From: a virus
DNA length: 55,845 bases
Virus record (IMG/VR): IMGVR_UViG_3300034066_001434
Location: 1 to 55,845 of that record
Direction: 5' to 3' (one strand)
The translations under genes were made by a program, and so were the position numbers. The notes under the pieces are model-generated. The model did no database searches and was not told the origin of the DNA. It worked only from the letters and a program-made list of their open reading frames with translations. The stretch's first letter is position 1; every line of letters starts with the position of its first letter. Shown piece by piece: positions 12,111-37,500 of this stretch.

Positions 12111-12667
12111 AAAGAGAAGTATCGGCTAGAACTAAAAACACACCACAGTTAAATATATTTGAGCAAGTAGATAAACTCTTAAAAAATGATAAGGGATTTT
12201 ATAGTAAAAGTTATAGTTGGTACAAAGATAATGTTGCTGCAGTGGCTAGAAAAAATGACATCTATAAAACTTTAGTCACTCTCGATGAAACTCTGATTCC
12301 TTCTGGCGGCAATTTATACTTATTTGAATACAATGCAACTTGGGCAAGAAAGCTTCCATACTATGATGAATTTCCTCTAGTTTATATGCTTCAGGGAGGA
12401 AGAAAATTTTTCGGTGCGAATTTACATTACTTAAACTATTCTACTAGATATAAAGTTTTAAACAGTATCATAGATGGACGACCAACAATTCCGAAACAGT
12501 GCTTTCATAATTATGTTTATGAAGGTCTTGATACACCGCTATTTAAAATAAATAGAGAAGATTGGATTAAATCTATTTTTTTGCCTTTGGAAAGTTTTGT
12601 AAGTCGGCAAAGGGGATCATATAAACAAATAAGTAAATCTTTTGTGTGGGGGGATTCTAAAAGATGA
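12107..12667 (+). CDS. Conserved T4-like virion protein, possible DNA end protector (gp2-like)
   Basis: The protein is 186 residues. The central motif LYLFEYNATWARKLPYYDEFPLVYML followed by FFGANLHYLNYSTRYKVLN is widespread in marine T4-like phages, where it is sometimes labelled DNA end protector gp2. It sits beside gp4, which in T4 acts together with gp2 at the packaged DNA end, so the context agrees. It is much shorter than T4 gp2 (274 aa), so the name is tentative. It overlaps both neighbours by four bases. Confidence 0.6.
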   Translation: MKREVSARTKNTPQLNIFEQVDKLLKNDKGFYSKSYSWYKDNVAAVARKNDIYKTLVTLDETLIPSGGNLYLFEYNATWARKLPYYDEFPLVYMLQGGRKFFGANLHYLNYSTRYKVLNSIIDGRPTIPKQCFHNYVYEGLDTPLFKINREDWIKSIFLPLESFVSRQRGSYKQISKSFVWGDSKR

Positions 12668-13503
12668 GTTCAAAATTAATAGCTAGTGATATTAAAAATT
12701 TTAATGATTTTAGAGCTTACATTTCAAAATATGGATTTTCTATTAACAATTTTTATGATGTTCAATTTTTGATTGGTAATACTGGATCCAGTTTTTTTAA
12801 TAGTGTATTTACAAGATCAATAAATTCAAATTCAAATAGTGATCAATATATCAGAGAATTGATGAGATTGTATGCAGATGAGTGTTCTATTCCAGGATAT
12901 GCGATTTCTACTGGAGACTTTAGAATAACTAATAGTCCAAATATGAAGTATGGGTATGGAATAGTAAATAATGAACTGACGATTTCTTTTATTTCCGATG
13001 CAGATTCGGAGATAAGACAAACTTTTGATGCATGGGGAAATTATATTTACGGTGGAATTTCTTCAAATACAAATGCTCCAATAAAAAATGCTCTCAATAT
13101 TAATTCCGTGAATGATTTAGGCAGAACTAGATATAAAGACGATTATGTTTTAGATATAGTTATCGTTAAACTAGAACGATATAGGAGTAGTAAACGAAAT
13201 TCTGGATCTCTTACAGATCCACTTACAGGAGAATTTAAAGGAGTTCCATTGAGTAGATTGTTCCCAGGAACAGATCCATCACAACTAACTGATACCAAAT
13301 CTTTATTTGGAGAAGCTAAACAAGTTTATTCGGTTAGGCTTCAAAATGCATTTCCCACAACAATTTCTGCAATTCCTTTAAATAGTGGTGCATCTCAGTT
13401 AGTAAAATTACAAGTTACTTTTGAATATGATATGGCAGTACCAGCTTCTCAAACTGGAGGTACTGTAGATTCTGGAGGAACTTGGGCAACCTTAGCAAAG
13501 TAG
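12664..13503 (+). CDS. 54: Baseplate tail-tube initiator (gp54-like)
   Basis: The protein is 279 residues (T4 gp54: 320). The sequence has the tail-tube-type beta fold pattern: FYDVQFLIGNTGS, CSIPGYAISTGDFRI, NELTISFISDADSEIRQTFDAW, and a C-terminal VYSVRLQNAFPTTISAIPLNS..LVKLQVTFEYD, as in gp19/gp54 relatives. Gp54 sits on gp48 and starts tube polymerisation. A second possibility is another tube-like protein, but the order after gp4 favours gp54. Confidence 0.72.
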   Translation: MSSKLIASDIKNFNDFRAYISKYGFSINNFYDVQFLIGNTGSSFFNSVFTRSINSNSNSDQYIRELMRLYADECSIPGYAISTGDFRITNSPNMKYGYGIVNNELTISFISDADSEIRQTFDAWGNYIYGGISSNTNAPIKNALNINSVNDLGRTRYKDDYVLDIVIVKLERYRSSKRNSGSLTDPLTGEFKGVPLSRLFPGTDPSQLTDTKSLFGEAKQVYSVRLQNAFPTTISAIPLNSGASQLVKLQVTFEYDMAVPASQTGGTVDSGGTWATLAK

Positions 13504-13536: not shown

Positions 13537-14247
13537 ATGCCTTTACCTAAATTAGTTGCTCCAACATATGACTTGGAATTACCATCCACAGGTCAAAAAA
13601 TCAAATACAGACCATTTCTAGTAAAAGAAGAAAAAGTTCTTTTACTTGCTATGGAATCTGAAGATGAAAAACAGATGATTAATGCAGTTCAAACTATTTT
13701 GAAAAACTGCATTAGTACAAAATTGAAGATTGAAGATCTTTCAGTTTTTGATATCGAATATCTATTTCTTAATATTCGTGCAAAGTCTGTGGGCGAAGAA
13801 ATTGAATTAAATGTTACATGTCCAGATGATGGTGAGACTGTTGTTCCAATTACTTTAAATGTTGAAGACATTAAGGTTCAAAAATCAGATGAACATGAAC
13901 GAATCATTCCTTTGACTAGTGCTATTTCAATTGCTATGAAGTACCCAAGTATGGAAATGTTTGTTCAAAACAATTTTACGGGAAATATGAAGACTGAAAA
14001 TGTATTCGATCTAGCTTCATCTTGTATTGAACAAGTAATTGAAGGAGATGAAGTATATGAAGTGAAGAGTTTTAGTAAAAAAGAAGTTACTGAATTTTTA
14101 GATAGTCTTGACACAAATCAATTCCTGAAAATTCAAAAATTCTTTGAGACTATGCCAAAACTAAAACATACAATCAAAGTAACAAATCCAAATACTAAAA
14201 AAGATAATGAAATAGTTATTGAGGGTCTTGCATCTTTTTTCGCATAG
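13537..14247 (+). CDS. 26: Baseplate hub assembly protein (gp26-like, T4 baseplate family)
   Basis: The protein is 236 residues (T4 gp26: 208). It begins LPKLVAPTYDLELPSTGQKI, with KYRPFLVKEEKVLLLAMES and SVFDIEYLFLNIRAKSVGEEI, the signature of the T4 baseplate hub family (PF12322). The gene stops at TAG 14245-14247 just after a T-run; a -1 shift there extends the product by 62 codons (see next entries). It lies directly before the tape-measure genes, the place tail-assembly chaperones occupy in many tailed phages. A CTAAATAA sequence at 13504 might be a weak late box. Confidence 0.82.
   Translation: MPLPKLVAPTYDLELPSTGQKIKYRPFLVKEEKVLLLAMESEDEKQMINAVQTILKNCISTKLKIEDLSVFDIEYLFLNIRAKSVGEEIELNVTCPDDGETVVPITLNVEDIKVQKSDEHERIIPLTSAISIAMKYPSMEMFVQNNFTGNMKTENVFDLASSCIEQVIEGDEVYEVKSFSKKEVTEFLDSLDTNQFLKIQKFFETMPKLKHTIKVTNPNTKKDNEIVIEGLASFFA
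14235..14241 (+). other. Probable -1 ribosomal frameshift site in gene 26
   Basis: The heptamer T TTT TTC (14235-14241) fits the X XXY YYZ slippery pattern in the gp26 frame, two codons before its stop. After slipping back one base both tRNAs re-pair with TTT codons, and translation continues in the -1 frame through a conserved-looking domain to TAA 14427-14429. Confidence 0.7.
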
Positions 14248-14429
14248 CACTAGCGCATCAATCGCTAGAGAATTATTTTCGTGTGAACTTTATATTACTT
14301 CAACATCACAAGTGGCCTTTAACTGATATTGAATTTATGATTCCATGGGAACGAGATGTATATGTACAGATGTTAGCCGATTTTATTGAAGAACAAAATA
14401 ATAAAAATAAAACATCTCAGCCACTATAA
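14241..14429 (+). CDS. 51: gp51-like extension made by -1 frameshift (gp26-51 fusion)
   Basis: From the slippery site the -1 frame reads RIALAHQSLENYFRVNFILL, then QHHKWPLTDIEFMIPWERD, YVQMLADFIEEQNN and a short basic tail, 62 residues. The pattern of a short helical domain with IPWERD resembles the gp51 hub assembly catalyst and the T extensions of lambda-like tail chaperones. There is no ATG before the conserved part; the first ATG (14337) falls in its middle and a GTG at 14283 would also truncate it. Fusion to gp26 (297 residues in total) is therefore the best explanation. It ends 4 bases before the tape-measure ATG. Confidence 0.68.
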   Translation, partial: RIALAHQSLENYFRVNFILLQHHKWPLTDIEFMIPWERDVYVQMLADFIEEQNNKNKTSQPL

Positions 14430-14433
14430 CCCA

Positions 14434-17400
14434 ATGGCACTTTCACTTTTTAGTTTAAAGAAAACAACTTCACCAAAAGTAACTTCTTTTGTAGATCCAA
14501 CTAAGTTTGGTGGAGTGGCTTCTAATGCAAACAAACAAACTTTAAAAAGTGAAGTTGCCCAAAAATCAATTTCAAATAAACAATTAAAAGAACTTAGTTA
14601 TATTAGAAGATCACTAGATGTATTGATAAGTATTGAGAAAAGACATTTTGAATTTTTAGGTGATGCAATTAAAAAATTTGTATTAAATGAAGATAAAAAT
14701 CAATTAAGAGAAGAAGAAGCTCTCCAAGAATCTGAACCAAAAAAAGATAAAAATGAAAAAAATCCTATATTAAAAGAAGGAAAGCAAAGACTTGAAGGAT
14801 TTGGAAATTTTCTTCAGGGATTAATCAAAATTTTTATTACATATAAAATTCTTGAGTGGGCAGGTAATCCACAGAATATCAAAAAAATTCAAGACTTTGT
14901 AAATCTTTTTACGGGGATATTTAAATTTTTAAATGCTATTGTAGGATTTGGCATAGATAAACTTTTCAGTGGAATTTCTAAATTAGTAGACGGGGAAGGA
15001 GTAACAAGAGTATTTGGGTTTTTAGAAGCTGCTGTTGGATTTTTTACTTTAAAGTGGTTATTAAATCCCACTAAAATAATTTCTGATATTAAAATGATTG
15101 GAAACCTTTTCACGAAGGTTATTCCAAATGCTATTAATACTGTTATAAATTTCTTTACTAATTTAATTCCAAAGGCTGCTGCCGATTCTGCCACAGAAGC
15201 ATTGGGGCAAGCAGCAAACCAGCTTCCAGGGGAAGCCGCAGATGCTGCTAGAACTGGCTCCGCCGCCGCAGAGGGGGCTACTACAGCAGCATCTGCGGCT
15301 AGAACTGGTTCTGCCGCCGCAGGAGCAGCTACTACAGCAGCAGGAGCAGCTACTACAGCAGCAGGAGCTGCTGCTACGGCTGCGAAAGGGGGAGCTAAGG
15401 TAACTGGAAAAAGTATACTAAAAGCACTTCCAGTTATTGGTGCAATATCCAGTGGAATTTTTGCAGCAGATAGAGCCACTAAAGGTGATTGGACTGGTGC
15501 TGGAATGGAGGTTGCATCTGGAGTTGCATCCTTGCTGCCTGGATGGGGAACCGTAGCATCTTTAGGAATTGATGCCGCATTGATTGGCAGAGATATAGCA
15601 AAGGATCAGGGCATTCCTATGCTAGCTAAAGGAGGAATTGTAACTAAACCAACTCAGGCTATAGTTGGGGAAGCAGGACCAGAAGCAATCCTTCCACTTG
15701 ATAAATTGGGGTCATTTGGAATAGATCAGTTTGCGGGAAAAGTTAATAAACAAATTCCAAAATTTATCAAACTTTTAACTTTACCGTTTAAAATTGTTGG
15801 TGCAGGTATTGTTGCATTAATATCATCCAGTATATCTAAGATCCCCGGACTAGGGCCAATATTGATGCCATTGATTTCTAATGTTGCATCTATGTTTGGA
15901 ATTCCTCCAGGATTAGTGAAAGGAATGTCTAACTTTGCATCAACAGCAATGAAAACTGTTGGTCAAGGATTGTCTAATGTAACAGAAATATTCGGGGGAG
16001 AAGATCCTAAAATTTCTAAGACTGATGCAGATGAATTTAAACCATCTGGAGATACATCAGTTAGAGGATTGTTGGGAGATATACTTGGTGCATTGATTAG
16101 CAAGAATGGATCAGATAACTCACAGTCACCGACTTCAACGGGAGGAGCAGGCGGCGGTGGGGGGTCTCCAGGTGGGTCTCCTTCTGCATCTGAAAGTGGA
16201 AACGGAGCAGCTGCACCAGTAGATACTGCAAAACAATCTATTGGAAAAGTAGGTGGATTTAGAGAAGATGGAACTCTCAAGGGAGTTCAAGGAACTACTC
16301 AAGTAGTATCAAATACTCGTGGAGGGGGAACTATAGAAGAACATTCTCCAGGGGCAGGATTAAAACCAGTCATCAATGGAAACAAAAAATACTGGTATAA
16401 TTCTCATGGAGATGTATTTAGATGGGAAAAACCAGGAGATCCATTAACTGACATTACTACAAACAGACTATTTGATTCTAAAACTCTAGGTGGCACATTA
16501 GTTAGAATACCTTCAAGTGGAGAGGTCAAAATTCTGAAGGGAATGTTTGGTGGAGATCAAACTGCAGTTGGAATGTATAATTATCAGATGAATAAGATTT
16601 TAAAATCTAGAGGAGTGAGTGGAAGAGGAACTGATACAAAGGATGCATGGGAGACTCCACAGAATGGAAAATATGGGGAACCTGCAAAATTTATTATTGG
16701 TGGAGGGAATGTACATGGTTCTGGGATTGGAGACAAGTATCCTGCAGTATTAGAAAATAATGAATATGTATTGAATAGAAATGCAGTTGCAGGTATGGGG
16801 GGAGCGAAAGAATTAGATAAAATTAATTTTGGAATGTTCCCTAGATTTGGTTCTTCAAAAATGTCTCAAATTACAAGGAACGAAAATAAAGCTAGTGGAG
16901 ATGGAAGACCAAGAACAAAGTTTCAAATTGGAGGAGCTGCGATATTAGAAGGTGCTAAAAAAATAGTTGGTATGGGTAAAGGTCAGGGAGACATGTGTGC
17001 AGTAACAACTAGAGCTGCATTAAGAGCTGCTGGACATCCTGCTGCAGGAAAGGTTACTCAGAAAGGCGATCTAGATTCCGAGGGGACAAAATATAATGGA
17101 GTAAGATATGCAGCTTCTTTTGCTGGAAGTGATATGGGAGCAGTGGTTAAACAAGCATCCAATCTTCAAGCTGGAGATGTTGTTTTGTGGAAAGGTGGAA
17201 ATGGATATCCTGCAGGTGCTATTACCCATGTAGGAATTAAAGGAGAAGGAAATGATTTATGGCATCATGGTAGAGCTGCTGGATTTAGAAAAGCTAGTAT
17301 GTACACAAGTTCTGGAGGCCAAACATTTGCTGCTGGAATTCGTTTAGGTGCATCTGGAACTACTACGGATGCGTCTGAAAAAAATACTGGGTCGTCATCT

Positions 17401-17760
17401 GGTGGAGACACTTCTTCTGCACCAAATTGGGACTCTATTACACAACATTTAGGAAGTTTGTTCAAGATAATGAACTCTTCTAGTACAGATCAAATAAATG
17501 CTGCGGCAACTCCTCCAGCTCCAAAACTTCCTCCAGTATCTGGAACTCCTCCAAGATCATCACAATCTTTGCAAGCTGCTCAACAAGAAAATATTAGAAC
17601 TGAAGCTCAAAGAAGGTCTGCAACAAAATCTGGAGGTGCTGTAGTTCCTATTAATATTCCAGGCAAAACAGTTACTGAATCTACTACTCAACCAATGGTT
17701 CAGCCATTGGGAAGAACTACACCTCCAGTTACACAAACTGTTTATCCAATAGCACCATAA
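14434..17760 (+). CDS. 29: Tape-measure-like baseplate hub protein with C-terminal cysteine peptidase/amidase domain
   Basis: The protein is 1108 residues from ATG 14434; the in-frame TTG at 14386 is rejected because it lies within the gp51-like frame. It has a helical N-terminus with acidic coiled-coil (about 50-120) and several hydrophobic segments (about 130-245). An Ala/Thr repeat and then GGIVTKPTQAIVGEAGPEAI, a motif of many tape measures, precede a Gly/Ser linker. Around 16.95-17.36 kb lies a domain with GDMCAVTTRAALRAAGH and ITHVGIKGEG, the Cys and His of an NlpC/P60- or CHAP-like wall hydrolase. It probably sets tail length (gp29 role) and helps DNA entry by cutting peptidoglycan. 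Confidence 0.75.
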   Translation: MALSLFSLKKTTSPKVTSFVDPTKFGGVASNANKQTLKSEVAQKSISNKQLKELSYIRRSLDVLISIEKRHFEFLGDAIKKFVLNEDKNQLREEEALQESEPKKDKNEKNPILKEGKQRLEGFGNFLQGLIKIFITYKILEWAGNPQNIKKIQDFVNLFTGIFKFLNAIVGFGIDKLFSGISKLVDGEGVTRVFGFLEAAVGFFTLKWLLNPTKIISDIKMIGNLFTKVIPNAINTVINFFTNLIPKAAADSATEALGQAANQLPGEAADAARTGSAAAEGATTAASAARTGSAAAGAATTAAGAATTAAGAAATAAKGGAKVTGKSILKALPVIGAISSGIFAADRATKGDWTGAGMEVASGVASLLPGWGTVASLGIDAALIGRDIAKDQGIPMLAKGGIVTKPTQAIVGEAGPEAILPLDKLGSFGIDQFAGKVNKQIPKFIKLLTLPFKIVGAGIVALISSSISKIPGLGPILMPLISNVASMFGIPPGLVKGMSNFASTAMKTVGQGLSNVTEIFGGEDPKISKTDADEFKPSGDTSVRGLLGDILGALISKNGSDNSQSPTSTGGAGGGGGSPGGSPSASESGNGAAAPVDTAKQSIGKVGGFREDGTLKGVQGTTQVVSNTRGGGTIEEHSPGAGLKPVINGNKKYWYNSHGDVFRWEKPGDPLTDITTNRLFDSKTLGGTLVRIPSSGEVKILKGMFGGDQTAVGMYNYQMNKILKSRGVSGRGTDTKDAWETPQNGKYGEPAKFIIGGGNVHGSGIGDKYPAVLENNEYVLNRNAVAGMGGAKELDKINFGMFPRFGSSKMSQITRNENKASGDGRPRTKFQIGGAAILEGAKKIVGMGKGQGDMCAVTTRAALRAAGHPAAGKVTQKGDLDSEGTKYNGVRYAASFAGSDMGAVVKQASNLQAGDVVLWKGGNGYPAGAITHVGIKGEGNDLWHHGRAAGFRKASMYTSSGGQTFAAGIRLGASGTTTDASEKNTGSSSGGDTSSAPNWDSITQHLGSLFKIMNSSSTDQINAAATPPAPKLPPVSGTPPRSSQSLQAAQQENIRTEAQRRSATKSGGAVVPINIPGKTVTESTTQPMVQPLGRTTPPVTQTVYPIAP
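15322..15384 (+). repeat. 21-base tandem repeat, three copies, Ala/Thr-rich
   Basis: GGAGCAGCTACTACAGCAGCA occurs at 15322-15342 and 15343-15363, with a diverged third copy at 15364-15384. An older, longer duplication (RTGSAAA units) lies just upstream (about 15249-15321). It encodes a GAATTAA repeat in the tape-measure protein and is prone to copy-number change. Confidence 0.85.
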
Positions 17761-17761
17761 G

Positions 17762-20614
17762 ATGCCTACTACAATCACTCCAATTCAAACAGATGTATTT
17801 TTAAATGAAAGTAGAAAGTTGGTAGAACTTTCTAAGATTCGTAGTGGATTTATAAAATTAATAAAATATAAAAAAGATAGAATAAAATTAGAACAAAAAT
17901 TTGAAGCAACTAAAGATAAATTTGCAGTTCGTCAACAATTAATAGATAGAAAAAAAATACAAGGGAAAAAGAAACCAAGTAAAACTATAAAAAATAAGTT
18001 AACTCAAAAATCAGAAAAAACTTTATCGGGAAGTTTATTTAATTTATTATTTACATTTATTCAATTTAAAGTTTTAAGTTGGTTTGGAGATCCTAAAAAT
18101 TTAGAAAAAGTTAAAGGTATAGTGAAAGCTGTACTTGGAATATTTAAATTTATAGATTGGGTTGCAACTGGATCTATTAAAAATTTATTAGATGGATTGC
18201 ATAGTTTACTATTTGGTGGTTCAATCTTAGAAAGAATCCTTGGATTATTTTCTGCTATTGTAGGATTTTTTGGCATAAAATATCTACTCAATCCTTTTAA
18301 AATAATTAAAGATATAAAATTTATTATTAAAAATGGTGACAAGATAGGCCAAATATTTGATGCATTTAGAAAATCTGGAATAACAGAAGGTGTAGGAAAA
18401 CTAGTACAGAATTTAACTAAAACTGGCGACATCTTTAAAAGAGGATTAGCTAAGGGATTTTCCAGAGCAATTTTAAAAGTATTTGGAAAGGGTGGTCTCA
18501 AATTATTAACTAAAGTTGCTTCATCATCTATAGTTGGTGGCGTGACAAAGTTTGCTGCTGGACCACTTAAAGCTATTGCAAGTAAAACTGTTGCAGGAAT
18601 TCCTATTGTAGGGCCTTTGCTGAACTTAGGAATAAATTTATTATTAGGAGATCCTGTTGATAAAGCTATTGTAAAAACAGTTGGTTCTACTTTAGGAATG
18701 GGAATAGGTGGAATTGTTGGATCTGTATTACCCGGACCTGGAACTATTGTTGGTGGAGCACTTGGAGGTATACTTGGTGATTGGGCCGGATCTAAATTAT
18801 ACGATTGGTTAAAAGGTGCATTTTCTAAAAAGAATGAAGAACCTGCACTTGCAGTTGGTGGTATTGTCACAAAACCAACTAGAGCTTTAATTGGTGAAGC
18901 TGGACCTGAGGCAGTAATTCCATTGGGTCAAATTTATAATGGATCAATGATGAGTGCTCCATTAGGCATCGTTGCATCCTCAATGATTGGAGGTATTAAT
19001 GCTCTTATAACATCCATGGGTCCAGTAGGATTTATGATTAAACCATTTGCATCTCAGTTACTTTCTCCATTTGCCAGAGAATTTGGAGTAAAAAATTATA
19101 CGTTCTCATCCGACTTGGCTAAAAAATCTGGAAACGTAATGATAACATCTGGAGGACAAGGAGATCAAAAACAGACTGAGGAATTAAACAATATAGTCGG
19201 TACTGGATTACCTTTAAATATTATATCCAAGAAACAAGAAGATACACAAGATAGATACAACTCTGGATTTAGTATTCGTGAAATACTTGGAGATATTTTA
19301 AACAATATTATTAACTTAGATTTTTCCTCTGGCGATACTGGTGGAGGAGCTGGTGGCGGCGGTGGTGGAGGAGCTGGAGCAGATCAATCATTAACTGCGG
19401 CAGAATTGGATGCTATTAAGGCATCTTCTGCAGACAAGCGAGCTGCTGCCCATCTAGCAACACTGGAAGCTACAGCACCACAGCATGTTGCTGATGTATA
19501 TCAAGTTATTTTAAACAGGGCTGCAGGACAAAGTGGGGGGATTCCTGCAGTAATTACTGCCAAGGAACAGTTTACACCTTACTCTGCAGCATTGTATGGT
19601 GGTAGCCCTGGAGATAAAAATGCAAATGCAAAATATGGTGGACTTGGAGTATCTAAAAAAGAATTATTTGATCTTGCTGCAAAACCAGATGGAATTCAGC
19701 AATTAACAAATAGATTTCAGGCGGGAAATCCAAAAGTTGCTGCTCAAGTTCTTGCAGACTTTGAGAAAAATGGTCCTTTATCTCAATCAGCAAGAAAATT
19801 TGTTGGGGGTGCTCAATATTTTCTTGGTTACAAACATTCTGGGGCAAGAAGTAGACCTGATGGAGGAAACTGGTTCAGAGACAAATATCAAACTGGTGGA
19901 GTAGTTTCAACTCAAGGTGTTTCAGACACAGGACCAGGATATACTATACAAAATGCAATAGATCAACAAGGTAGACCAGTAGTATTCTCTCAATCTGCTG
20001 CGTCTGCGTTTGCAAAGATGATGAAAGATTCTGGTGGGATAGTAAAACCATCAGATGTTGCAAGTAGTAAAAGAAGTCCCGCAAAAAATAGATCAGTTGG
20101 AGGAGCAACAAATTCCAAACATATGTATGGAATTGCTATGGATATTCATGGTTCATCTAATCAATGGATCAGAAAAAATGGTGCAAAATATGGTTGGATT
20201 GCAAATGATTATTCTGGTTCTCATGGAGGACATTTTGAATTTGGTGGACAAGGAATTCAACCATCGGATGTTTCTTCATCCTCTCAAGAAAAACCGACAT
20301 CAGGATCTAGCTCACAATCTACCACACCAGACTGGTCAGCTATCACAAAACATCTCGGAGATTTATATAATATATTAAATGGAACTCCACCAGAACTAAA
20401 AATAAATTCTGAAAATTTATCAACTCAAAGTATGAATTTCTTGGAGAATTCTAAATTAGATCTTGGAGTTTCTGATACATATATTATATCTCAGCAAGGA
20501 AATACAATGATTTCCAATATGAATGTAATGACTCCATTACCTTCTACAGATTATTCTATAGGATCTTATTCTTTAATGGATACTTCCGTTTATCAATCAC
20601 AACGTAGACTCTAA
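17762..20614 (+). CDS. Second tape-measure-like protein with SleB-like and M15-like wall hydrolase domains
   Basis: The protein is 950 residues and a paralogue of the upstream protein: both share GNP/GDP..N..K..G..IFKF, a VGFF..K(Y/W)LLNP(F/T)KII segment and GGIVTKPT..(L/I)(I/V)GEAGPEA. After a poly-Gly linker (about residue 530) comes LEATAPQHVADVYQVILNRA with EQFTPYSA, a SleB/hydrolase-2 pattern (19.43-19.9 kb). Then follows SKHMYGIAMDIHG with HGGHFEF, the zinc-ligand pattern of M15/VanY-type peptidases (about 20.1-20.25 kb). It may be a second ruler or inner hub component that delivers two wall-cutting activities. The stop overlaps gp27 (TAATG). Confidence 0.75.
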   Translation: MPTTITPIQTDVFLNESRKLVELSKIRSGFIKLIKYKKDRIKLEQKFEATKDKFAVRQQLIDRKKIQGKKKPSKTIKNKLTQKSEKTLSGSLFNLLFTFIQFKVLSWFGDPKNLEKVKGIVKAVLGIFKFIDWVATGSIKNLLDGLHSLLFGGSILERILGLFSAIVGFFGIKYLLNPFKIIKDIKFIIKNGDKIGQIFDAFRKSGITEGVGKLVQNLTKTGDIFKRGLAKGFSRAILKVFGKGGLKLLTKVASSSIVGGVTKFAAGPLKAIASKTVAGIPIVGPLLNLGINLLLGDPVDKAIVKTVGSTLGMGIGGIVGSVLPGPGTIVGGALGGILGDWAGSKLYDWLKGAFSKKNEEPALAVGGIVTKPTRALIGEAGPEAVIPLGQIYNGSMMSAPLGIVASSMIGGINALITSMGPVGFMIKPFASQLLSPFAREFGVKNYTFSSDLAKKSGNVMITSGGQGDQKQTEELNNIVGTGLPLNIISKKQEDTQDRYNSGFSIREILGDILNNIINLDFSSGDTGGGAGGGGGGGAGADQSLTAAELDAIKASSADKRAAAHLATLEATAPQHVADVYQVILNRAAGQSGGIPAVITAKEQFTPYSAALYGGSPGDKNANAKYGGLGVSKKELFDLAAKPDGIQQLTNRFQAGNPKVAAQVLADFEKNGPLSQSARKFVGGAQYFLGYKHSGARSRPDGGNWFRDKYQTGGVVSTQGVSDTGPGYTIQNAIDQQGRPVVFSQSAASAFAKMMKDSGGIVKPSDVASSKRSPAKNRSVGGATNSKHMYGIAMDIHGSSNQWIRKNGAKYGWIANDYSGSHGGHFEFGGQGIQPSDVSSSSQEKPTSGSSSQSTTPDWSAITKHLGDLYNILNGTPPELKINSENLSTQSMNFLENSKLDLGVSDTYIISQQGNTMISNMNVMTPLPSTDYSIGSYSLMDTSVYQSQRRL

Positions 20615-25201: not shown

Positions 25202-25540
25202 TTGAAACAGTTAGGGAAGCACTGCGTCGCAGAATTGTATGGTTGCGATCATTCAATTTTAAATAATGAAAAAGTTTTAATTGAATTAATCAAAGAATCT
25301 ATAGATATTGCTGGAGCAACTTTGCTGGATATTTGTTCTCACAAATTTAATCCTCAGGGAGTTACTATAGTTGCTTTACTATCTGAAAGTCATATTTCTA
25401 TTCATACCTGGCCTGAAAATGGTAGCTCCGCATTAGACGTTTTTACTTGCGGAAGTTCCAAGCCAGATTTAGCTCTTTTACATATCATAAACTTCCTAAA
25501 CCCATCAGAATATAATATGAATTGCTTCGATAGAGGATAA
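25202..25540 (+). CDS. speD: S-adenosylmethionine decarboxylase proenzyme
   Basis: The protein is 112 residues. SESHISIHTWPE (61-72) is the SpeD signature: cleavage before Ser63 generates the pyruvoyl cofactor, with His68 and Cys83 (FTCG) as the usual catalytic partners. The enzyme makes decarboxylated SAM for spermidine synthesis. The N-terminus MKQLGKHCVAELYGC fits the family, which forces a TTG start at 25202, as no in-frame ATG exists nearby. SpeD is a recurrent cyanophage auxiliary gene, here downstream of a late-type promoter. Confidence 0.94.
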   Translation: MKQLGKHCVAELYGCDHSILNNEKVLIELIKESIDIAGATLLDICSHKFNPQGVTIVALLSESHISIHTWPENGSSALDVFTCGSSKPDLALLHIINFLNPSEYNMNCFDRG

Positions 25541-25588: not shown

Positions 25589-28500
25589 ATGGCTCTAACT
25601 AGAATTACCTCTGGTGGCATTGCGGAAGGTGTAAGGATTACATTTGATAAAACTGGTACTCCTACAGCTCCTGCAATTTCGTTTAATAATACTAGTGATA
25701 CTGGAACTGGTATTTACCAGTCAGGAACAAATGAACTTGCAATTGCAACTGATGGTCAGCCAAGACTCATTTTCAAATCTGATGGAAGAATTGTAACTGG
25801 GTCTGGAACAATTCTAGGAGGAACTAATCCAGATTTCGTTAATGCTGATAACATTACATTATATGTAAACCAATCTGATTTAAATGCATCAGATGTGGAA
25901 GGTAATGATGGCGGTAATATCAATAGACCATTTAAAACAATTGAGAGAGCTTTACTTGAGGCAGCTAGAAAGAGTTATAAAGTAAATCCTGCTTCAATTC
26001 CAGTAAATCAAATCGAAATAAATAAATCCTATACTATTACTAGTATAGGAAGTACAGACTTTGTTGCACTAGGAGCAACAACAAATACTGTTGGAGTTAC
26101 TTTTACTGCAAACTCTCCTGGTACTGGTACTGGTACGGTAACTGCAAATAATGATAAGTTTGAGGCATTTACTATTATGGTTATGCCTGGTCAGTATGAA
26201 ATTGATAACAGACCTGGGCACGATGTTACTACAAACCCACTTACTTCAGGAACAGCTGGTTCTATAGAAGACAATGCATTTAGATTCAACCCAAGGAATG
26301 GCGGCGTAATTGTCCCTAGAGGTACTTCTATTGTAGGTTATGATCTTAGAAAGACTGTAATTCGTCCTAAGTATGTTCCTATTCCATCTACTACCACCAC
26401 AACAGAAGAAGGTAGTATTGTAAATGATGGATATGTACTATCTCATGTAATGTATGATGGTGCAACCATGATTGAAAGAAATCGTGGTTATATTCAAGAA
26501 CAAACTAAGTTATTTCTTCAGAACACTAATGTTGCTGGATATACTGGATTAAGTGAGGCTCAAAAAACTCTTTGTGTTCGTGATATTGGATATTTTATTG
26601 ATGGAATAATTTCTGACTTGAGGGAAGGAGGAAATGAAAATACATTTATTAACGCAGAATATTACATTGATGGTGCTGGTGGATATAAAAATAGATTCCT
26701 AAAATCTAACGATACAGATTTAACTGCTGAAGTCGCTGCTACAGTATCTGCATTTAATAGAGCCACTCTATTAATGAGATATACTGTAGAAAATGTTTGG
26801 AGTGGGTATACAGAATATACTACTGCCCAAGGTAAAACTATTGACAGAACTACATTTTCTGCAGGAAATGGTTATGTTTCTAATGGAGATTGCTCTACTG
26901 TATCCAATGCGATAATTGTATTAGGAGGAATTGCAACTGGAATTTTAAACAATCCTAATACTTATACCACATCAAATGTAACAATAACACTTGTTGGTGG
27001 GACTAGCTCTACAGTAAGATTGAGAAAAACTCCAGGAGTATTCAAACAAACCTCCATCTTCAAGGTAACTGGAGGTTGTTATTTCTGGCAGATGACATTT
27101 AAGGATGCAGTTGGCACTCCTTACAATTCTGCAACATTCAATTCTAATGGAGTTCCAACATTTACCACTGCACCTAATCCAAACTATTCTCACCATAGAG
27201 TTGTTGCATTTACTTATGCAGATCAAAGAACTGTAGACGGTGAATTAGATCAATATTATAAGAAAATTGATGCGTGGGATGCTACTTTTGATGCTGGTGG
27301 TTCTAGAGAAGTAAGACCAGAAGAGTATACTATTGTTGGAGATGGTAGTACCAACGCAACTATTGATACTGTAAACTCTTGCTCTCCATATATTTTCAAT
27401 TGTTCACTACGTTCTGTTTATGGTATGTGCGGTATGCATACCGATGGAAGTAAAGTGGCAGAAAAGAGCTTCAAGTCCATGGTTGTGGCTCAGTTTACTG
27501 GCATTTCTCTTCAAAGAGATACAAATGCGTTTAATCAACCAAAAGATGCAGAAGGTGATGCAAATAATTCAACCTATAATGACAATGATCCATTAACTGC
27601 AGCACCTCCAATCTATGCAGATCCAGATGCACAATATAAACCTGATTGGAGACACTTCCACATTAAGGCATCTAATGGAGGATTCATTCAGGTAGTTTCT
27701 GTTTTCGCAGTTGGTTACGCTGATCAATTCCTTGCAGAAAGTGGCGGTGATATGTCTATCACCAACTCAAACTCCAACTTTGGTCAGATCTCTCTACGTG
27801 CTAAAGGATCTCAATTTAATGCATTCAAGCCAGCATCACAGGGCAAGATTACTGCACTTATTCCGCCAAGAGGAATTAATACCAAACCTACTAGTGTATC
27901 TTTTTATAATATTGATTCTACTACAACTTGGGAAAAAGCTGGTCAAGCTGGAGATGAATTTAGCGCAAGTAAATTATCACAATATTCATCTGATGCAGAT
28001 CAGTTAAGATTATATCTTGAAGGGTCTTATTCTAGTGAAGCTGACATTCCAGAACTAGAAGTCAAAGTTCCAGATTATAGTCAATCTCCAGTAAATGGAG
28101 TTTATCCGACTATAACAAGGAGATATTTAACATACGGAACCACAAATCAATATGCGTTATTCAGAGATTACTATGCAACTTCTGGAACTACTGCAGAAGC
28201 AAGTAGATATATTAATGTAGAAGTTGAAGAACAAGATACTGAAGGTTCAATTGCATTCAGTGCAAAGGTTTATTTTGTTGGAAATTCAGGTGAAGTCGGT
28301 AGCCAAAGTAGTCAAACTGCGTGGCAATTAAGTAATTCTCAGCGTCAAGGATATTTTTATGATCCCAATAAAGGTGCAGTATATTTAAAATTAGATGGTG
28401 ATGATGCTAAAACTAAAACATTCTTATCTGACTTTATCTTTAAGTATAAAACAGAAGAAGTTTTTGGTTTTAGAGAAACAAGAGATCCAGAAACTGGAGC

Positions 28501-31500
28501 TACTGTTACCGAGTTTGTGAAACAGGATAAAGATGTTCTTGTTTACAGGGATGGATTTCCATCTGGTCTCACCATTAATAAAAATGAGGATTCCAGAGGA
28601 TCAACTCCAAGTGATTTACTATGGAGAGTAGAGTATACTATTCCAAAAGATTGTCCAGAAATTCCAAAACCACCTGAAAAGAGATTTATTCTCAAAGGAA
28701 TTAGACCAGGAAATGGTCTAGATGGAATGCCATATACTGATTACAGATTTATGATATGGGATGTTGAAGAATATCTTACTTGGGAGAGAAATGTTAGGGA
28801 TGGTGTATATTATTTAACCTTAATTCGTGCCGATATTAATAAATTTGTAGATGGAATAGATAATGCTGTAGATGTAGTAAGAAGAAGACCTACTGCAATC
28901 ACAAATACTAGTTTCTACGATTGTAAGTTTATAGAAGAGACGAATAATTATGATAAAGATACAAGACTAACAACCAACGTAAACTATCTATATCCTTCAA
29001 TTAACGAAGAAGGACCAACCTATGATACTAGAAGAACTTGGAACCCACCACAATCTGAAAGTCGTGTAATAGTTGAGGATATTGGAGCTGGAACAAGACT
29101 AAAAGATATATCAGTACCAAATTATATTAGATACAGAGCAGGTACAACTCCAATTAAAGATGTTCCTGCAATGTATTCTGTAACTGCAGAAACAGTTCAT
29201 AGATTAGTTCAAGCATTTGATCTTCGTTATACAGGAGCAACTTCAAAATCTAGTTCTAATATTGCTGTTGCTTCTGTAGTTTCTTGGGATGATAGAGCTT
29301 CAACTTCAACATATAGTACTTCATCTACTTTTAATGTATATGGAAATAATAATACAAATAGATTTGGTAAAGATAAATCAGTAGGCGTCACTACAAATGC
29401 TACCCAATCTATAGATTATAATGCATATGGTATTAATGGTGATGCTTTAGAAAGACGAATTGTGGTGTGTAGTGGATTATACACTGGTTCTGTAAGTGAT
29501 ACTACTGTAAACAACTATTCAATCTCTCAGGCAGTCTCACTATACAGACCATCTATTCTTCGTGCATCTTCACATACTTGGGAATATGTCGGTCTAGGTT
29601 CTGGTAACTATTCTACTGCATTCCCACAACTACAGACTAGGGTTCTTAAGCCATACGAGCAGTATATTGCACAGGGTTATGAAAACGCTGGTGGATTCGT
29701 AGCATCTTCGGGTACAAACTCCAACGGAGATTTCTATATTGGTACTCAGATTATTCAAGCTGGTGGTTCAAGTACAGTATCACTAAACGTACCAAAAGTT
29801 CGCAAATCTTCAGAATCTAATTTCGTAGATATTGAAAACATTGAAAACAGAATTGCAAACTCTGTTGTTAACGTTACTGCGTCTTCATCTGCTGGCGGTA
29901 AAGCTCAACAAGCTATTAAGGCTTTATCTAATTTCTTCAACGCAGAAAAACTTAGCGTAAGTAATATTGCAACAATTAGTAACCTAGTTGTTCAACAAAA
30001 ACTCTTCATTAATAATGCAAGTATTAATAACGCAGCATTTTACCCAGAAGGAACTACAAATGCATATGGATTTGTAAAAGCTGCAAAACCTGAAAAAACA
30101 GGATTTATTTCAACTGATACCAACGATAAACTATATGTTTCTCCAAAATATCTTGATGCATGGAGAGTAACCAGACAATTAGTTTCTGCATCTGCTGTTA
30201 CTCTTGATAACAATAGAGTTTATATACAACCATCTTCTTTTGCTCTTGCAGATAGTTATGATCCTACAACTTCACGTTATGAAGCTATTTCTTTAACTGA
30301 TATCGAAAGCAAAATTGCGAATAATCAAGAGATTAGACTATACTTAAAAGAAACTTCTGGACTACCTTCTTATGGAACTATTGACATTGAAATGTCATTA
30401 TTAAAGGTAGATATAATTGATTATAGAATGAATCTTTCATCGAAACAGTTTTTAAATCCAAAACTTAATTTATCTTTAGATTATAACGAAATTGATTATA
30501 CAGAAAATTATATTGTTCTCAATAAAATTCAAAACAATTTCCCAATCGTAGATTATATTAAGAGTTGCATTGGAACTTCTGGATATAATATTATTGTAAG
30601 AAGTATTTCGGGATTCTTGGATCAAGGTGAATTTGGAATTAATGCGAATGAAGGTGATATTAAACTACTCACTGCAAGACTATCTGCAAATGTTAATGCG
30701 GATAGTCTAGGATCTCCAAATATAGCTGATTCTTTAACTTATAAGAATATTAGTATCACTACTACAGCATCTGAGTGGGCAAAATGGCCTGATAGAGGAG
30801 CACTATCTTTAAGACAATATCCAAGAGGAACTTCTGCTTCAAATTATGCAATTTCTAGTTTTGTATATATTAAATCTACTACACAGGGAACATTTACTTT
30901 AATCAAAAAACTCGGTGACTCTAGAGGAGATTCAGGGTTTATTTATAGATCAGATTATGAAAATAATTATCCTGGAATTGATTCTAAGAATGTATTTTTT
31001 GCTGGATGTAGCACTGTAGTAACTTTCTCCGATAAGTGGGCTTCTGAAGGTCCATTTATCCCACCATTAGATCCAACTAAAGGTGCTGTTGAAGATGTAA
31101 ATATTGAAGAAGCAACTTTATTTGAACTTCCAAGAAAATCTATTCCAATTGCTGCTGATATTGATAAAGATTATATTGATTCAAACTTGCCAAATCCATT
31201 TAGTTCAAAAGCTCTAGGCGTAAATATTCAAACTAGAACTGCTGTTAAAAAATTTGCACCACTAGCATTCTTCAATCAAGTTCAGCAATGGTGTGATACC
31301 AGTGGATTCAATCCTTCGGATGAAATTGAATTATTGATGAAACCAGGATATTACAAGTTAGATAGGTCCATTTTCCCATGCAAAATTAAAATTAATGGTT
31401 CTGGACTTACTAAGAGTTCTGTATTTGCTGGAAAAGAGCAAACTGGAATATCTGCAGGAAGAATGGGAGGATATCTTGAGGATTCTATTAAGAGAGGTGA

Positions 31501-34500
31501 TAGTATTTACATGTATCGTTCTCCAGAGTTTTCAGATCAATGGGATAAAAGAGATGCAATTTATGTAAATATATCTGGGGGACTAACTTCTAAAGGTGGA
31601 TTTAATTTAAATAATGTTCACTTCTTAGGATTAAATGAAGCTGTATCTAAAAATGAAATTCCAGATGCTCTATATTCTGAGGATACAAAAATTCAATCTG
31701 CAAGAAGACTTTTAAGAAAAGCTTATTATACCAAAAACTTTATCAAAAAATATTTTGATACTCTTACTGCTGATGGCGTATCTGGAGCATTGTCATTTAC
31801 TGCTAATAGCACTATTGGCTCAGCAGATGAAAAAGCAGAAATTGAATTCACTGTAAATAGTGGTAACGTTATTAATTCTGATATTTCCAGTGTAGATTAT
31901 GGTGAATTAAATCCAGCTGTTTCTACAAATTCTCGTTACTTAGTTATAAGACTTAAAGCTTCTAATTTTGCAGGATCAGTATCTGCTAGACGTAAATTTG
32001 CATGGGCCAGAAAATATATTATTCCAGGATCAACAATGTATTGGTTGAACACTGGAGAGAAAGTATCCAATGTAAGTGAATCAACTAAAGTACTAAGTGT
32101 AAGAAGACTCAATTTATCCAATTCTGCGACATGGACATCTAGCTCAACTGAAGAGATTCATCTGCTAGTATCCGTTTTTAGGTCAGGGGGTGCTAACAAT
32201 GGCAATAGTGGAATCTACACAAATGACATTGAAGATTTAAATATTGGTACTTATTCAACTGGAGATAAGAAACTAGTATTCTTAAATGAAGATGGTGCAG
32301 AATTTACTACTCTTGTTTACAACTGGGCACTTAATCGCAGAAGAAACTTCCTACCAAAAGGATTTATGCATGAAGGTGGCTATCAGCCAGCCATTATAAA
32401 GAGAGTTACTGCTGCAGTAACTTTAGGAGCAGGAACTGCTGGAGTTACTATTGCCCTAGACAGTGTAGACTTACTCAAAGTTGGAGATAGAATCGTAGGT
32501 GCTGGAATTCAACCTGGAACAAGAATTGAATCTATTTCTAGTGGAACTAAGACTATTGTAACTTCTGATAATATTAGTGCATCTCTTGCAGTCAAAACTC
32601 CACTATCATTTACACAATTTGATGATTTTGGTGATGAAATACCAAAATATGATATTCCAGAAGTTTTTGGGATTACCAGATCAACAGATGATACATATAT
32701 CTCAATAGTCATTGATAGAAATCCAAATGCATCTATTGATAGTTCAATTAATATGTATCCTTTTGGTGCAGGAAGTTTTGCAGATTATGAAAATGCTTTA
32801 CTTCAATTTAAAACTTCCCACACATCAGTAACAACAGAATATAGTGCTGCAGAAGATTGTGCCGTTGCAATTCCAAGAGCTAGATCTTACTCCAAGAGGG
32901 TAAGTGGATATCAGGATCAAAGATTTGTTATTTTAGATATCAATCCAAATAGTATTGCAGATTTATCTTCTATAAATCCATCAAATCCTGTTAATTCATC
33001 CCCAGCTAGATATATAGATAATGCTGGAATTTCTGTTGATATTCTTAGAGATTTTGCTCTATATAATAGAAACACAATTTCTTTTGGTGGTGGATTTGGA
33101 ACTGGATTTACTTCAAGTACTGTTGCATTTACATCCGCTGATGACACTACCGCAGAAATCAAGGCTAAACTGGATGCTGCTATTACAAATGGTGGACGTA
33201 AATATAATGCATTAGCACAAGTAACTTTAACTGCTCAATCTGGTGCTACTTTAGGATCTGGATTTAGAATATCTCCTATCATTAATACCGCTGGTGGGGC
33301 TGGAAATGTTACAGGATTTACTGTAAGTCCAATCTCTGGCCAATCTATTGTTGCACCAACTGGAAACTTTACAATTACTATTACAGATAGAAAGGGATAC
33401 ATTTTATCTCCAACTGGAAGAACTGTTGATATTAACAGTACAAGATTAGATGGTGAAGATTTTACTGCGGTAGCAAAGGCAAACCTATTTGCTTCAATTA
33501 GAGTTTCTGGAAATGGATCTGTAACTTTAGGATCTCCATATGTAGAAGATTATGGCCTAGATTCAAATGGCGACATTGATACAATCAATGCTAGAGGTAA
33601 AAAGATTTATTGTTCTTGGCCAAGTTCTTATAGAGCACTCAGAAGAAGATTCCCATCAGCACCAGGAACTAATATTAGTGCAGTAAATGGAAATTATCAA
33701 AGCAGTCTAATTAATGTAGATGCAATTCCAGGATCAAATTTCACTCTAAATCTAACAAATGTGACTATTGGTGCTCAATCCCCTGCAAGTGAATCTGCCA
33801 ATACATTTGGTGGCGGTTATCGTGGAGGTCTTATCAGATGTAGGGGTTCCAAACTAACACTTGCGGGAACTAGATTTAGAGGAAATCTATCTCTAGACTG
33901 GACTGGACTATTGTGTGAAAGGGACTCTAGGGCAGGTGGATTATTCATTGCGGGACACTCTATTGAAATGTTCCAAATGGAAGATCAAAATTCCTTTGAT
34001 AGAATTGGAGGATCTTCACCTGCTCAACGTATTACTACATCTAAAGAAGATGAAGAATTCTACAAGATTACAGAATTTGATCCACTTTCTAATGTATATC
34101 TAGAACCTGCAAAAGATCCATATGGCCAATTAAGTGATGGAGATCCTAGAACTTTTGAAATTTCAACATTCCAAGCTATTAGAAGACAAAATTTAGGATC
34201 TAGAGTTTTAACTGCATTTGATGGTAGTTCAGTTCAACCAGGAGAATTGCAAACTAAGATATCTCTATTTGAAAGATATCAATCTCCATATGGAATATAT
34301 TATGATAATACTACAACCACAGATCCAGATTTAATAACTGAAGATACTAATGGAAATCAATATCTAGCACTTTCTGGTGGAACAAGAGCCACTGCAGTTA
34401 GATTAAGATGGAATAATACTACTACCACAATACAAAGAAACGCTGTAACTGACAATACTACTGTAACCTCTGGAACACTAGCAAATCTTCCAGGTAGAAC

Positions 34501-37500
34501 ATTAACATTCCTATACCCTGATACTGAAAGTGGCCAAGATTTGATCAATAACATTTTCTTTGGTGCCAATGCTACTAGAATTGTTAAACCAACAAATATT
34601 CAAACTACTTATGCAACGGTAACTAGGTTACAAACTTATGCAGAAACTAAATTTACTAAAGATGGAGTTCCATCTTCCACAGGAAAATATAGAATTGCAG
34701 TTATTACCTATTCTGGAACTATTCCAGCTGAAGTAACTGCAGCAAATGGATCATTTATACAATTTAATACCAAGTATCTAAATTCTCAAAGATATAATTA
34801 CATTTCAACTATAACATCTAGATATCAAAAAACTGTTCTAAATGGTGCTTCTAAATTAATTCTTTCCAATGACGGTGGAGTTCCTACATATGCAAGTCAT
34901 GCAGATCTTGATATTGAAGATGATGTGATGACTCCACAGCTTTCAAGATCAACTATATTAACTCTAAAAAATATCACTCAAACCACTGGAGTTACAGATG
35001 GTATGGTGAGAATGAGTACGAATTCTAGTGGAAGAATTACTTCCTTAGATATTATAACTTATGGCACTGGACACAAAGAAGGAGATAATTTTGCAATTTA
35101 TAATGGAGTTACATTATTATCATCTGGGTTGACTATTAAAGCGAGAAGAAATCTAAGTGATATTGATATATCAATATTAGACGAAGGAGAATACATGGCA
35201 ATTTTACCAAAAAATTGTTTTGTAGTTAATAGTATTAATCTACCATCTCCATCTTCCATAAAACAAAAATTAATTGAAGCTAGACTTATTTTCACTCCTG
35301 GAAGTTATATTTTCTACGCAAACAATTATTATAGAATTGGAAATACAGACTTAACCAATAAAAAACCTTATATTGGAGTTTATAAGTATGTTAACCCTAT
35401 AAATCTTTCAGATCAACGTGCTGATATTGTTGTAATGCTTGAAGATCCAGAATATGCCCCAACATATGCTGCAAATACAAGATTTGATTTATTTAAATAT
35501 GATAATATTTTAAATTACTGGCCAGATTCTGGAAGACTAGTGATTGGAAATCGTGAAACTTGTGAATTTACAAAAGTAGGAGATCCTACAACAAATACTG
35601 GTTATCAATTACAACTAACCAGAAGTATGACTAAGTATTGGCCACATTATATTCGTGACTGGGAAGGATTAGATCCCAATGATTCTACAGATGCTACTGT
35701 TACTTTTAATACACTAAATCCAACTGTTCTAAGACTTTCTGGGCCAGTAGATGTGACTTGTTATGGAATCAAGAGAATTCTACCATCTGATAATACTACT
35801 ACCCAAACATTTGACTCTCAAACTGTTGCAGAATATGTGTGTCCAAGCGGAATGGTTTCTAATAAGGTTGCAAGAGTATCTATTCCTGCAGAAAATTTAG
35901 ATGCAGATTTCCAAAAACTATCTATTGGACAAATTATTACAATTCCTTATAAAGATATTGCAGATACATATAATTGGTCTGGTTGTAGAATTACCGTTGG
36001 CGATGCACAATATAATGCAGGATCTTCAAATTCTACAAATAGAGCTGGAGATAGAGTAATTAGTGGAACTATTAGATCTACAACAACTTTTAACACAAGA
36101 AGTGATAGAACATTTAATATCTTTGGAACTTCTACTACAAATATTGCTCCATATGAGTTTATAAATCCAATGACAATGGGCAGAATGTCATCACCGAGAG
36201 GAGATACATTCTCAGTTGGACCTGCTGGATTTGGAAGCTACAATTATATGTGGACACCACTACATGAAACAGCACTTTCTGGTTCTACTAGTGTTAAAAT
36301 TTCAGCTGCATTTATTAGATCAATAAGAAGATTGAATACTGATGGCCAATATACTGCTACTATTGAATCAATTAATAGTACAACGGATCCAACAGAAAGA
36401 ATGATGACTGTAACTGCAGTTGCAAGTGGTGGATTATTCAAAGGTCAACCAATTAGAACTGGATCTCCTAGTGGACCTATAATTGGTTATGTTGTTGGAT
36501 TTGAGGGTGATTTTATTAATGATGCTGGAACTTATGAAGATAATATTACATTAACTGGAAATGGTAACACTGGAGTATATAGAATTCAAATTGTAGATGG
36601 ACAAACAATTCCTACAACATCTACAACATTCTATGGAACTAGATTAAGTGGTGGATTAGATTATCTAGTTTGGGCTAGAAATAATGGTGGTTGGAGCAGA
36701 ACAGTAACTTCTGTTACTGTAGATCCTGTAACAAAAATTGCAACAATTAATTTAAATGCTGGATTAGCTACTCCATCTGGAGGAACTACTGGGACTACTC
36801 CAAGTATTAACGCAGGAGACTGGGTTCTTTGGTATTTCTATGGAACTAGTGATAATAATATAAGACTATTACTAGACAAACCATTGATGAAGAATATTCC
36901 AGAAGGAACTGTATTATCTATTTGCCCAACTAATGATTTGCGTGACGGCACATTTGGAGAAGCTGGAATTAGAGCTACAAATGGATTTATATTTAAGTCT
37001 AGAATTATTGATATTGAGAAATCTACCAATAAACTTAATTTATATCTAGCTGATGATTTTCCACAAGAAAAATGGTCAAATTCTGTTTCAAGAAGTTATG
37101 GATTACTTTATGTTAATCATGGTGGTTGGACTTATCCTAAGACTGGAGGTAGTTCATTCCGTGCAAACAATGCAGTACTAACTGCACCAGATGGTACTGG
37201 AATTGGAACTACTATCAAACTTCCAAATAGAAGTGGTAGAATTCAAGCTGGAGATACTTTATCATATACTTGGGAAGACGAGTTAGTTGTAGAATCTACT
37301 GCTCATGCAGGTGGAACTATTACTTCTTTAACAACTCAAAATTTTATTACCACTTTAAATGATCAAAGATATTATATTTTCCCTGGATATTTAATATATG
37401 ATTCTGGTAATAATTTGATTGGAACAGTTAGTTCCGTTGCAGCAGATAGAATTAATTTAACTGCAAATTGCTTAGTTGCTACAACAAGTCTAAGTGGTTG

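Follow-up and report, generated by a model that had tools for sequence, protein, structure and literature searches.

A probable programmed -1 ribosomal frameshift at the end of gene 26 joins gp26 to a gp51 tail in T4-like phages

Short and long tail chaperones in phages

Long-tailed phages of the lambda type encode their tail assembly chaperones as a short and a long protein. In lambda (G/GT) and in P2 (E/E'), a single gene past the tail tube gene carries a slippery heptamer near its 3' end, and a short major product is made alongside a long one that continues in the -1 frame. The review by Atkins (2016) describes G-T type frameshifting as conserved in long-tailed phages "except T4" (PMC5009743). 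T4 possesses gp26 and gp51, encoded by two full-length genes on opposite strands that harbor no heptamer. Sullivan (2010) described gp51 as missing from Aeh1 and cyanophage gp51 as about 20% of the full length (PMC3037559). Some T4-like phages are described as having a short gene and a fused long gene in place of frameshifting, according to a paper that cites Vladimirov 2022 (PMC10885494), and Vladimirov 2022 (Virology 566:9-15) is reported to assign chaperone genes in T4-like phages. For the Pakpunavirus Adele (PMC12846349), alignments of myoviruses point to a conserved poly-T shift site ending the short chaperone gene; the motif there is GTTTTT, the phage lineage is a different one, and the accessible part of that paper mentions no stimulators. 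The dnaX gene of E. coli combines a match to the anti-Shine-Dalgarno (anti-SD) sequence ∼9-10 nt upstream of a slippery heptamer, A AAA AAG, with a hairpin a few nt downstream, and its shifted product is the shorter one.

The locus described here shares the one-gene, short-and-long arrangement of lambda and P2, the protein types of T4, and the three-part signal of dnaX. It differs from lambda in its protein family (PF12322), which displays no similarity to solved chaperones by sequence search, and in having a T TTT TTC heptamer, a stop one codon on, an anti-SD match with a hairpin, and a candidate tape measure as partner. Unlike dnaX, the shifted product is the longer one.

Gene 26 and its -1 frame

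The window analysed is a 55,845-base fragment (55.8 kb) of an uncultivated T4-like marine virus; a plasmid search found nothing. The features relevant to the junction are as follows.

12664..13503, + strand: tail tube gene, upstream context (phrog_45, E 8e-26)
13537..14247, + strand: gene 26, short product (TAC-N-like), 236 aa (PF12322, E 1e-75; phrog_150, E 3e-82)
14221..14225, + strand: GAGGG, a Shine-Dalgarno-like putative stimulator 9 nt before the heptamer, with synonymous-site selection at the family level
14235..14241, + strand: slippery heptamer T TTT TTC in X XXY YYZ phase, with GCA TAG behind it
14241..14429, + strand: -1 frame extension, the putative gp51 tail, 62 codons plus TAA, with no start codon of its own (phrog_634, E 5e-25)
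14245..14247, + strand: TAG that ends gene 26 in the zero frame, one codon past the heptamer
14250..14268, + strand: hairpin CTAGCG-CATCAAT-CGCTAG, 6 bp with a 7-nt loop, 8 nt past the heptamer
14434..17760, + strand: large virion-type protein, 1108 aa, candidate tape measure (motif GGIVTKPTQAIVGEAGPEAILP; weak phrog_10093 match)

The PF12322 and phrog_150 (T4 gp26) profiles match the product of gene 26 over its whole length, and the 3' end of the gene reads TCT TTT TTC GCA TAG. The -1 frame is closed by a TGA at 14220 and is then open up to the TAA at 14427-14429, which gives 62 codons counted from the CGC at 14241. The initial annotation of this DNA had placed the heptamer at the end of gp26 and an open -1 frame of 62 codons behind it, and both its coordinates and its codon count were reproduced. 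The phrog_634 profile (gp51 hub assembly catalyst) matches the -1 product at profile positions 58-116 of 121, profile comparison with the C-terminus of T4-type gp51 gives a probability of 94.5, and tblastn detects relatives of the frame in 544 phage records. The phrog_634 match and the tblastn records argue that the frame is not a chance open reading frame, and the gp51-like domain that had been suggested for it is real; judged by profile, the -1 product is the C-terminal part of gp51.

The T4 proteins provide the reference for this assignment. T4 gp26 is matched by PF12322 only; T4 gp51 (249 aa) is matched by PF12322 over residues 1-201 and by phrog_634 over its C-terminal part. The gp26 of the window's family matches the N-terminal domain of T4-type gp51 with a profile comparison probability of 95.7. 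By these domain matches, T4 gp51 is a gp26-like domain and a gp51 tail in one protein, and T4 therefore has one gene each for the short and the long form, whereas the window would encode both by one gene and a frameshift.

Ahead of the conserved LENYF core, the -1 frame of the window contains no ATG, GTG, or TTG; the first is a GTG at 14283 that lies inside the core, in agreement with the earlier remark that the conserved part lacks a suitable ATG before it. Among 211 junctions from relatives, the post-slip frame spans 57-69 codons wherever the junction sequence extends to the end of that frame. An ATG is present within the first 11 codons of the frame in 119 junctions, mostly at codon 4 or 7, and one further junction has GTG or TTG only. 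In the remaining 91, the window included, gp51 lacks an ATG, GTG, or TTG start, as it does in 63 of the 127 representatives, and no start codon was found upstream within the open -1 frame in any of the 211. The cultured cyanophages S-CAM8 and P-RSM1 are examples that lack a gp51 start. The absence of a start in a large part of the family would leave frameshifting as the sole route to the gp51 part there. In the junctions with an ATG, about half of the relatives and just past the stop, a separate gp51 could also be made. Several of the phage records examined carry no annotated gp51 gene.

The neighbours of gene 26 are a tail tube gene upstream, identified by phrog_45, and a downstream gene that is only tape-measure-like. 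The -1 frame does end 4 bases before the ATG at 14434, as first described; the accompanying identification of the next gene as the tape measure stays at the level of a candidate, the evidence being a motif and weak matches (phrog_10093, E 4e-5 over 38 residues). The genes at 14434-17760 and 17762-20614 encode tandem large virion-type proteins that have in common a tape-measure-like motif, GGIVTKPTxAxxGEAGPEAxxP; the second contains a peptidase M15 domain, and either of the two is a candidate tape measure. Elsewhere in the window, a small TTG-start open reading frame with HTWPENGSSALDVFTCG at 25202-25540 resembles, as judged by eye, S-adenosylmethionine decarboxylase (speD), a gene known from cyanophages. 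A single open reading frame of 4463 aa occupies 25589-38980, which is very large for a structural protein of a T4-like phage.

The slippery heptamer and its flanking elements

Gene 26 loci were drawn from phage records and IMG/VR. The IMG/VR scans were anchored on gene 26 or its protein, and the heptamer was thus not selected for. The set comprises 213 distinct junctions, from which 127 representatives were taken to reduce relatedness, without a full phylogenetic model; all junction counts are inflated by relatedness. T TTT TTN is present in phase in 211 of the 213, as T TTT TTC (193), TTTTTTT (15), TTTTTTA (2), or TTTTTTG (1), and the stop of gene 26 ends 6 nt past the heptamer in 178 of these 211 relatives. 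The initial annotation had proposed a -1 frameshift and suggested that relatives be compared for conservation of heptamer and frame; that conservation supports its reading.

The codon that precedes the heptamer ends in T in all 211 junctions (AGT, TCT, GAT, GCT, AAT, or GGT), and the residue encoded varies among Ser, Asp, Ala, Asn, and Gly. Given the codon usage of each of the 127 representatives, a preceding codon that ends in T has a probability of 10^-26.7, the use of TTT for the first Phe one of 10^-16.6, and that of TTC for the second Phe one of 1.2e-51, figures that take no account of shared ancestry. TTC encodes the second Phe in 112 of the 124 representative cases, against a background in the same genes in which 74% of Phe codons are TTT. 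In three phages, the second residue of the heptamer is Leu (TTA, TTG) and the slippery pattern is kept, which indicates that the pattern outlives the amino acid. The other conserved Phe-Phe pair of gene 26, used as a control, is slippery in 3 of 87 representatives. T4-type gp26 genes, in which gp51 is separate, keep a Phe-Phe or similar end but have lost the heptamer, their ends reading TTC TTT, TTT ATT, TTC ATT, TTA TTT, or G TTT TTT. The control pair and the T4-type genes rule out that Phe-Phe is conserved merely as protein. On this codon-level evidence, the heptamer is conserved beyond the need for its amino acids and not by chance.

Upstream of the heptamer, pairing with the 3' end of 16S rRNA is strongest 9-10 nt before it. 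The anti-SD energy is -7.2 kcal/mol compared with -5.5 kcal/mol in codon-preserving resampling (p 4e-12), and control positions display no anti-SD excess. Glu at the anti-SD position is encoded by GAG in 74% of cases versus 30% in the background; where it is GAA, GGG is favoured for the Gly that follows (Fisher p 5e-5).

Downstream of the heptamer, the mean folding energy over the initial 13 codons of the -1 frame is -7.6 kcal/mol compared with -3.7 kcal/mol for the synonymous null (p 1.8e-17, 127 representatives), with little or no folding excess further on. The hairpin of the window is more stable than 98% of synonymous recodings and modest against dinucleotide shuffles (z -1.4 for 30 nt, -0.6 for 42 nt). 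The P-SSM2-like clade has a 10-bp stem with a 9-nt loop in which 86% of cells pair, compared with 27-40% when the stem is slid. Covariation in this stem is weaker than hoped: the nine compensatory cells all fall at one pair (UA/AU/GC/GU exchange), so that 1 of 10 pairs has two-sided changes, and the case for the hairpin is consequently built on the slid control and on comparison with the synonymous null. MA01 contains an unrelated 10-bp stem of the same geometry. The position of the hairpin varies by clade, and about half of the relatives have no hairpin above the null. Three loci (L174, L176, and L177) combine T TTT TTG or T TTT TTA heptamers with strong 6-9 bp hairpins of differing sequence. 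A search of Rfam with the shift site identified no known RNA family. By the resampling nulls, both the anti-SD match and the downstream hairpin are under selection at synonymous sites at the family level, and the spacing in the window, 9 nt upstream and 8 nt downstream, resembles that established for dnaX (PMC5009743).

Proposed mechanism, alternatives, and lineages

These elements make it very probable that gene 26 yields both gp26 and a gp26-gp51 fusion, the latter through a programmed -1 ribosomal frameshift near its 3' end. From their arrangement, we infer a slip in cells that is taken by a minority of ribosomes. Most ribosomes would stop at the TAG at 14245 and release gp26 of 236 aa. The others, with tRNA-Phe occupying both the P and the A site over T TTT TTC and held at the heptamer by the upstream anti-SD match and the downstream hairpin, would slip back one base onto TTT TTT, then read CGC and continue for 62 codons. 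The predicted product is a fusion of about 297 aa with the junction ...ASFFRIALAHQ.... Gp26 and the fusion would correspond to the short and the long chaperone that lambda-type phages use in tail assembly, and would be the counterparts of the separate T4 proteins gp26 and gp51.

Two other routes to a gp51 product can be considered. The gp51 tail may be a separate small protein made by termination and reinitiation past the gene 26 stop, with the heptamer merely encoding Phe-Phe. Depositors have annotated separate gp51 genes, about half of the relatives have an ATG at codon 4 or 7 of the -1 frame, and some phages have the overlapping starts TAATG (KVP40, VAP7, Cygsa01) or TGATG (EniLVp02, YB07). 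This explanation is nonetheless very unlikely, as a usable start is absent from the window and from 90 other junctions, T TTT TTN is kept neither in the control Phe-Phe pair nor in T4-type gp26, and reinitiation would leave unexplained the codon choice of the heptamer, the anti-SD match, and the hairpin. Still less credible is slippage of RNA polymerase on the T run, in which transcripts that gain or lose a base would be translated normally into the fusion. T runs are a substrate for such slippage in some genes, but the bacterial cases are described on runs of 9 A or T (PMC5009743); the run here is no longer than 6 T, or 7 T in 15 cases, its codon phase is fixed, and stimulators of the ribosomal type flank it on both sides.

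A third alternative accepts that the fusion is made and questions its role, which would be that of a baseplate hub assembly factor rather than a tape-measure chaperone. We consider this unlikely, although distinctly less so than the other two. In the T4 literature, gp26 and gp51 are treated as chaperones of hub assembly (PMC3004832), the downstream gene is no more than a candidate tape measure, and structural comparison provides little to decide the matter: Foldseek against PDB gave no significant match for gp26 or T4-type gp51, searching solved structures by sequence produced nothing relevant, and no chaperone structure is among the matches listed for the T4-type gp51 model. As to a chaperone fold like that of HK97 gp13, the HK97 chaperone 2ob9 (probability 0.69, E 1.1) has the highest probability among the matches listed for the gp26 model, and 3fgx scores 0.18. 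The position past the tail tube gene and the short and long product logic fit lambda-type chaperones, and Vladimirov 2022 is reported to assign chaperone genes to T4-like phages. It is from these points that we infer the chaperone role.

The frameshift signal extends beyond cyanophages. The heptamer reaches Aeromonas phages 65, P19, Aeh1, and PX29, Cronobacter LPCS28, Stenotrophomonas YB07, and Vibrio KVP40. Aeromonas 65, P19, Aswh_1, and Aeh1 and Cronobacter LPCS28 have the heptamer and the -1 gp51 frame with no ATG before the core, and PX29 keeps the heptamer with an annotated gp51 that starts at TTG. In Aeh1 (L275, from 1577) and in L270, L271, L274, and L277, gp51 lies in the -1 frame of gene 26 past T TTT TTC and is unannotated or called missing in these genomes.

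An independent gp51 start or loss of the heptamer, either of which the initial annotation had named as counter-evidence, was encountered only at the edges of the family. KVP40, D527, EniLVp02, and YB07 keep the heptamer and have in addition a TAATG or TGATG start, as does Sinorhizobium phiM19 with T TTT TTT and TGATG. VAP7 (L269), D509 (L268), and Cygsa01 (L010) keep both frames without the heptamer and have an overlapping TAATG start; VAP7 is Ackermannviridae-like, and the three may make free gp51. In S-SCSM1 (L015, 1990-2016), an insertion of ∼11 nt, located past the heptamer, breaks the -1 frame and the gp51 ATG remains, which is either a natural loss or a sequencing error. These cases show that other lineages take another route, and they do not contradict the reading of the window.

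In an unrooted tree with long branches, T4-type gp26 and gp51 form separate clades beside the single-gene phages. A somewhat favoured scenario is that the dnaX-like cassette of anti-SD match, T TTT TTN, and hairpin is ancestral and sets the chaperone ratio across the Kyanoviridae and several other T4-like lineages, with T4 and its close relatives having swapped to gene duplication to give genes 26 and 51. Both the two-gene relation of T4 and the presence of poly-T shift sites in the chaperone genes of T4-like phages appear to have been reported before (Vladimirov 2022); the proposed link of gp26 and gp51 to the tail chaperones was thus right in direction but apparently not new. As far as checked, the three-part cassette and the "missing" gp51s of Aeh1 and others are new; to a core idea that is treated as known, the analysis would add the stimulators, the tally of start codons, and the hidden gp51 frames.

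The location of gp51 in the -1 frame of gene 26, a frame that gene finders overlook, would explain why cyanophage gp51 looked like a ∼20% stub and why that of Aeh1 was called missing. The shift system is easily testable by an E. coli reporter. Together, the results indicate that many T4-like phages, cyanophages above all, carry the shift signal, and that T4 keeps the two products as two genes.
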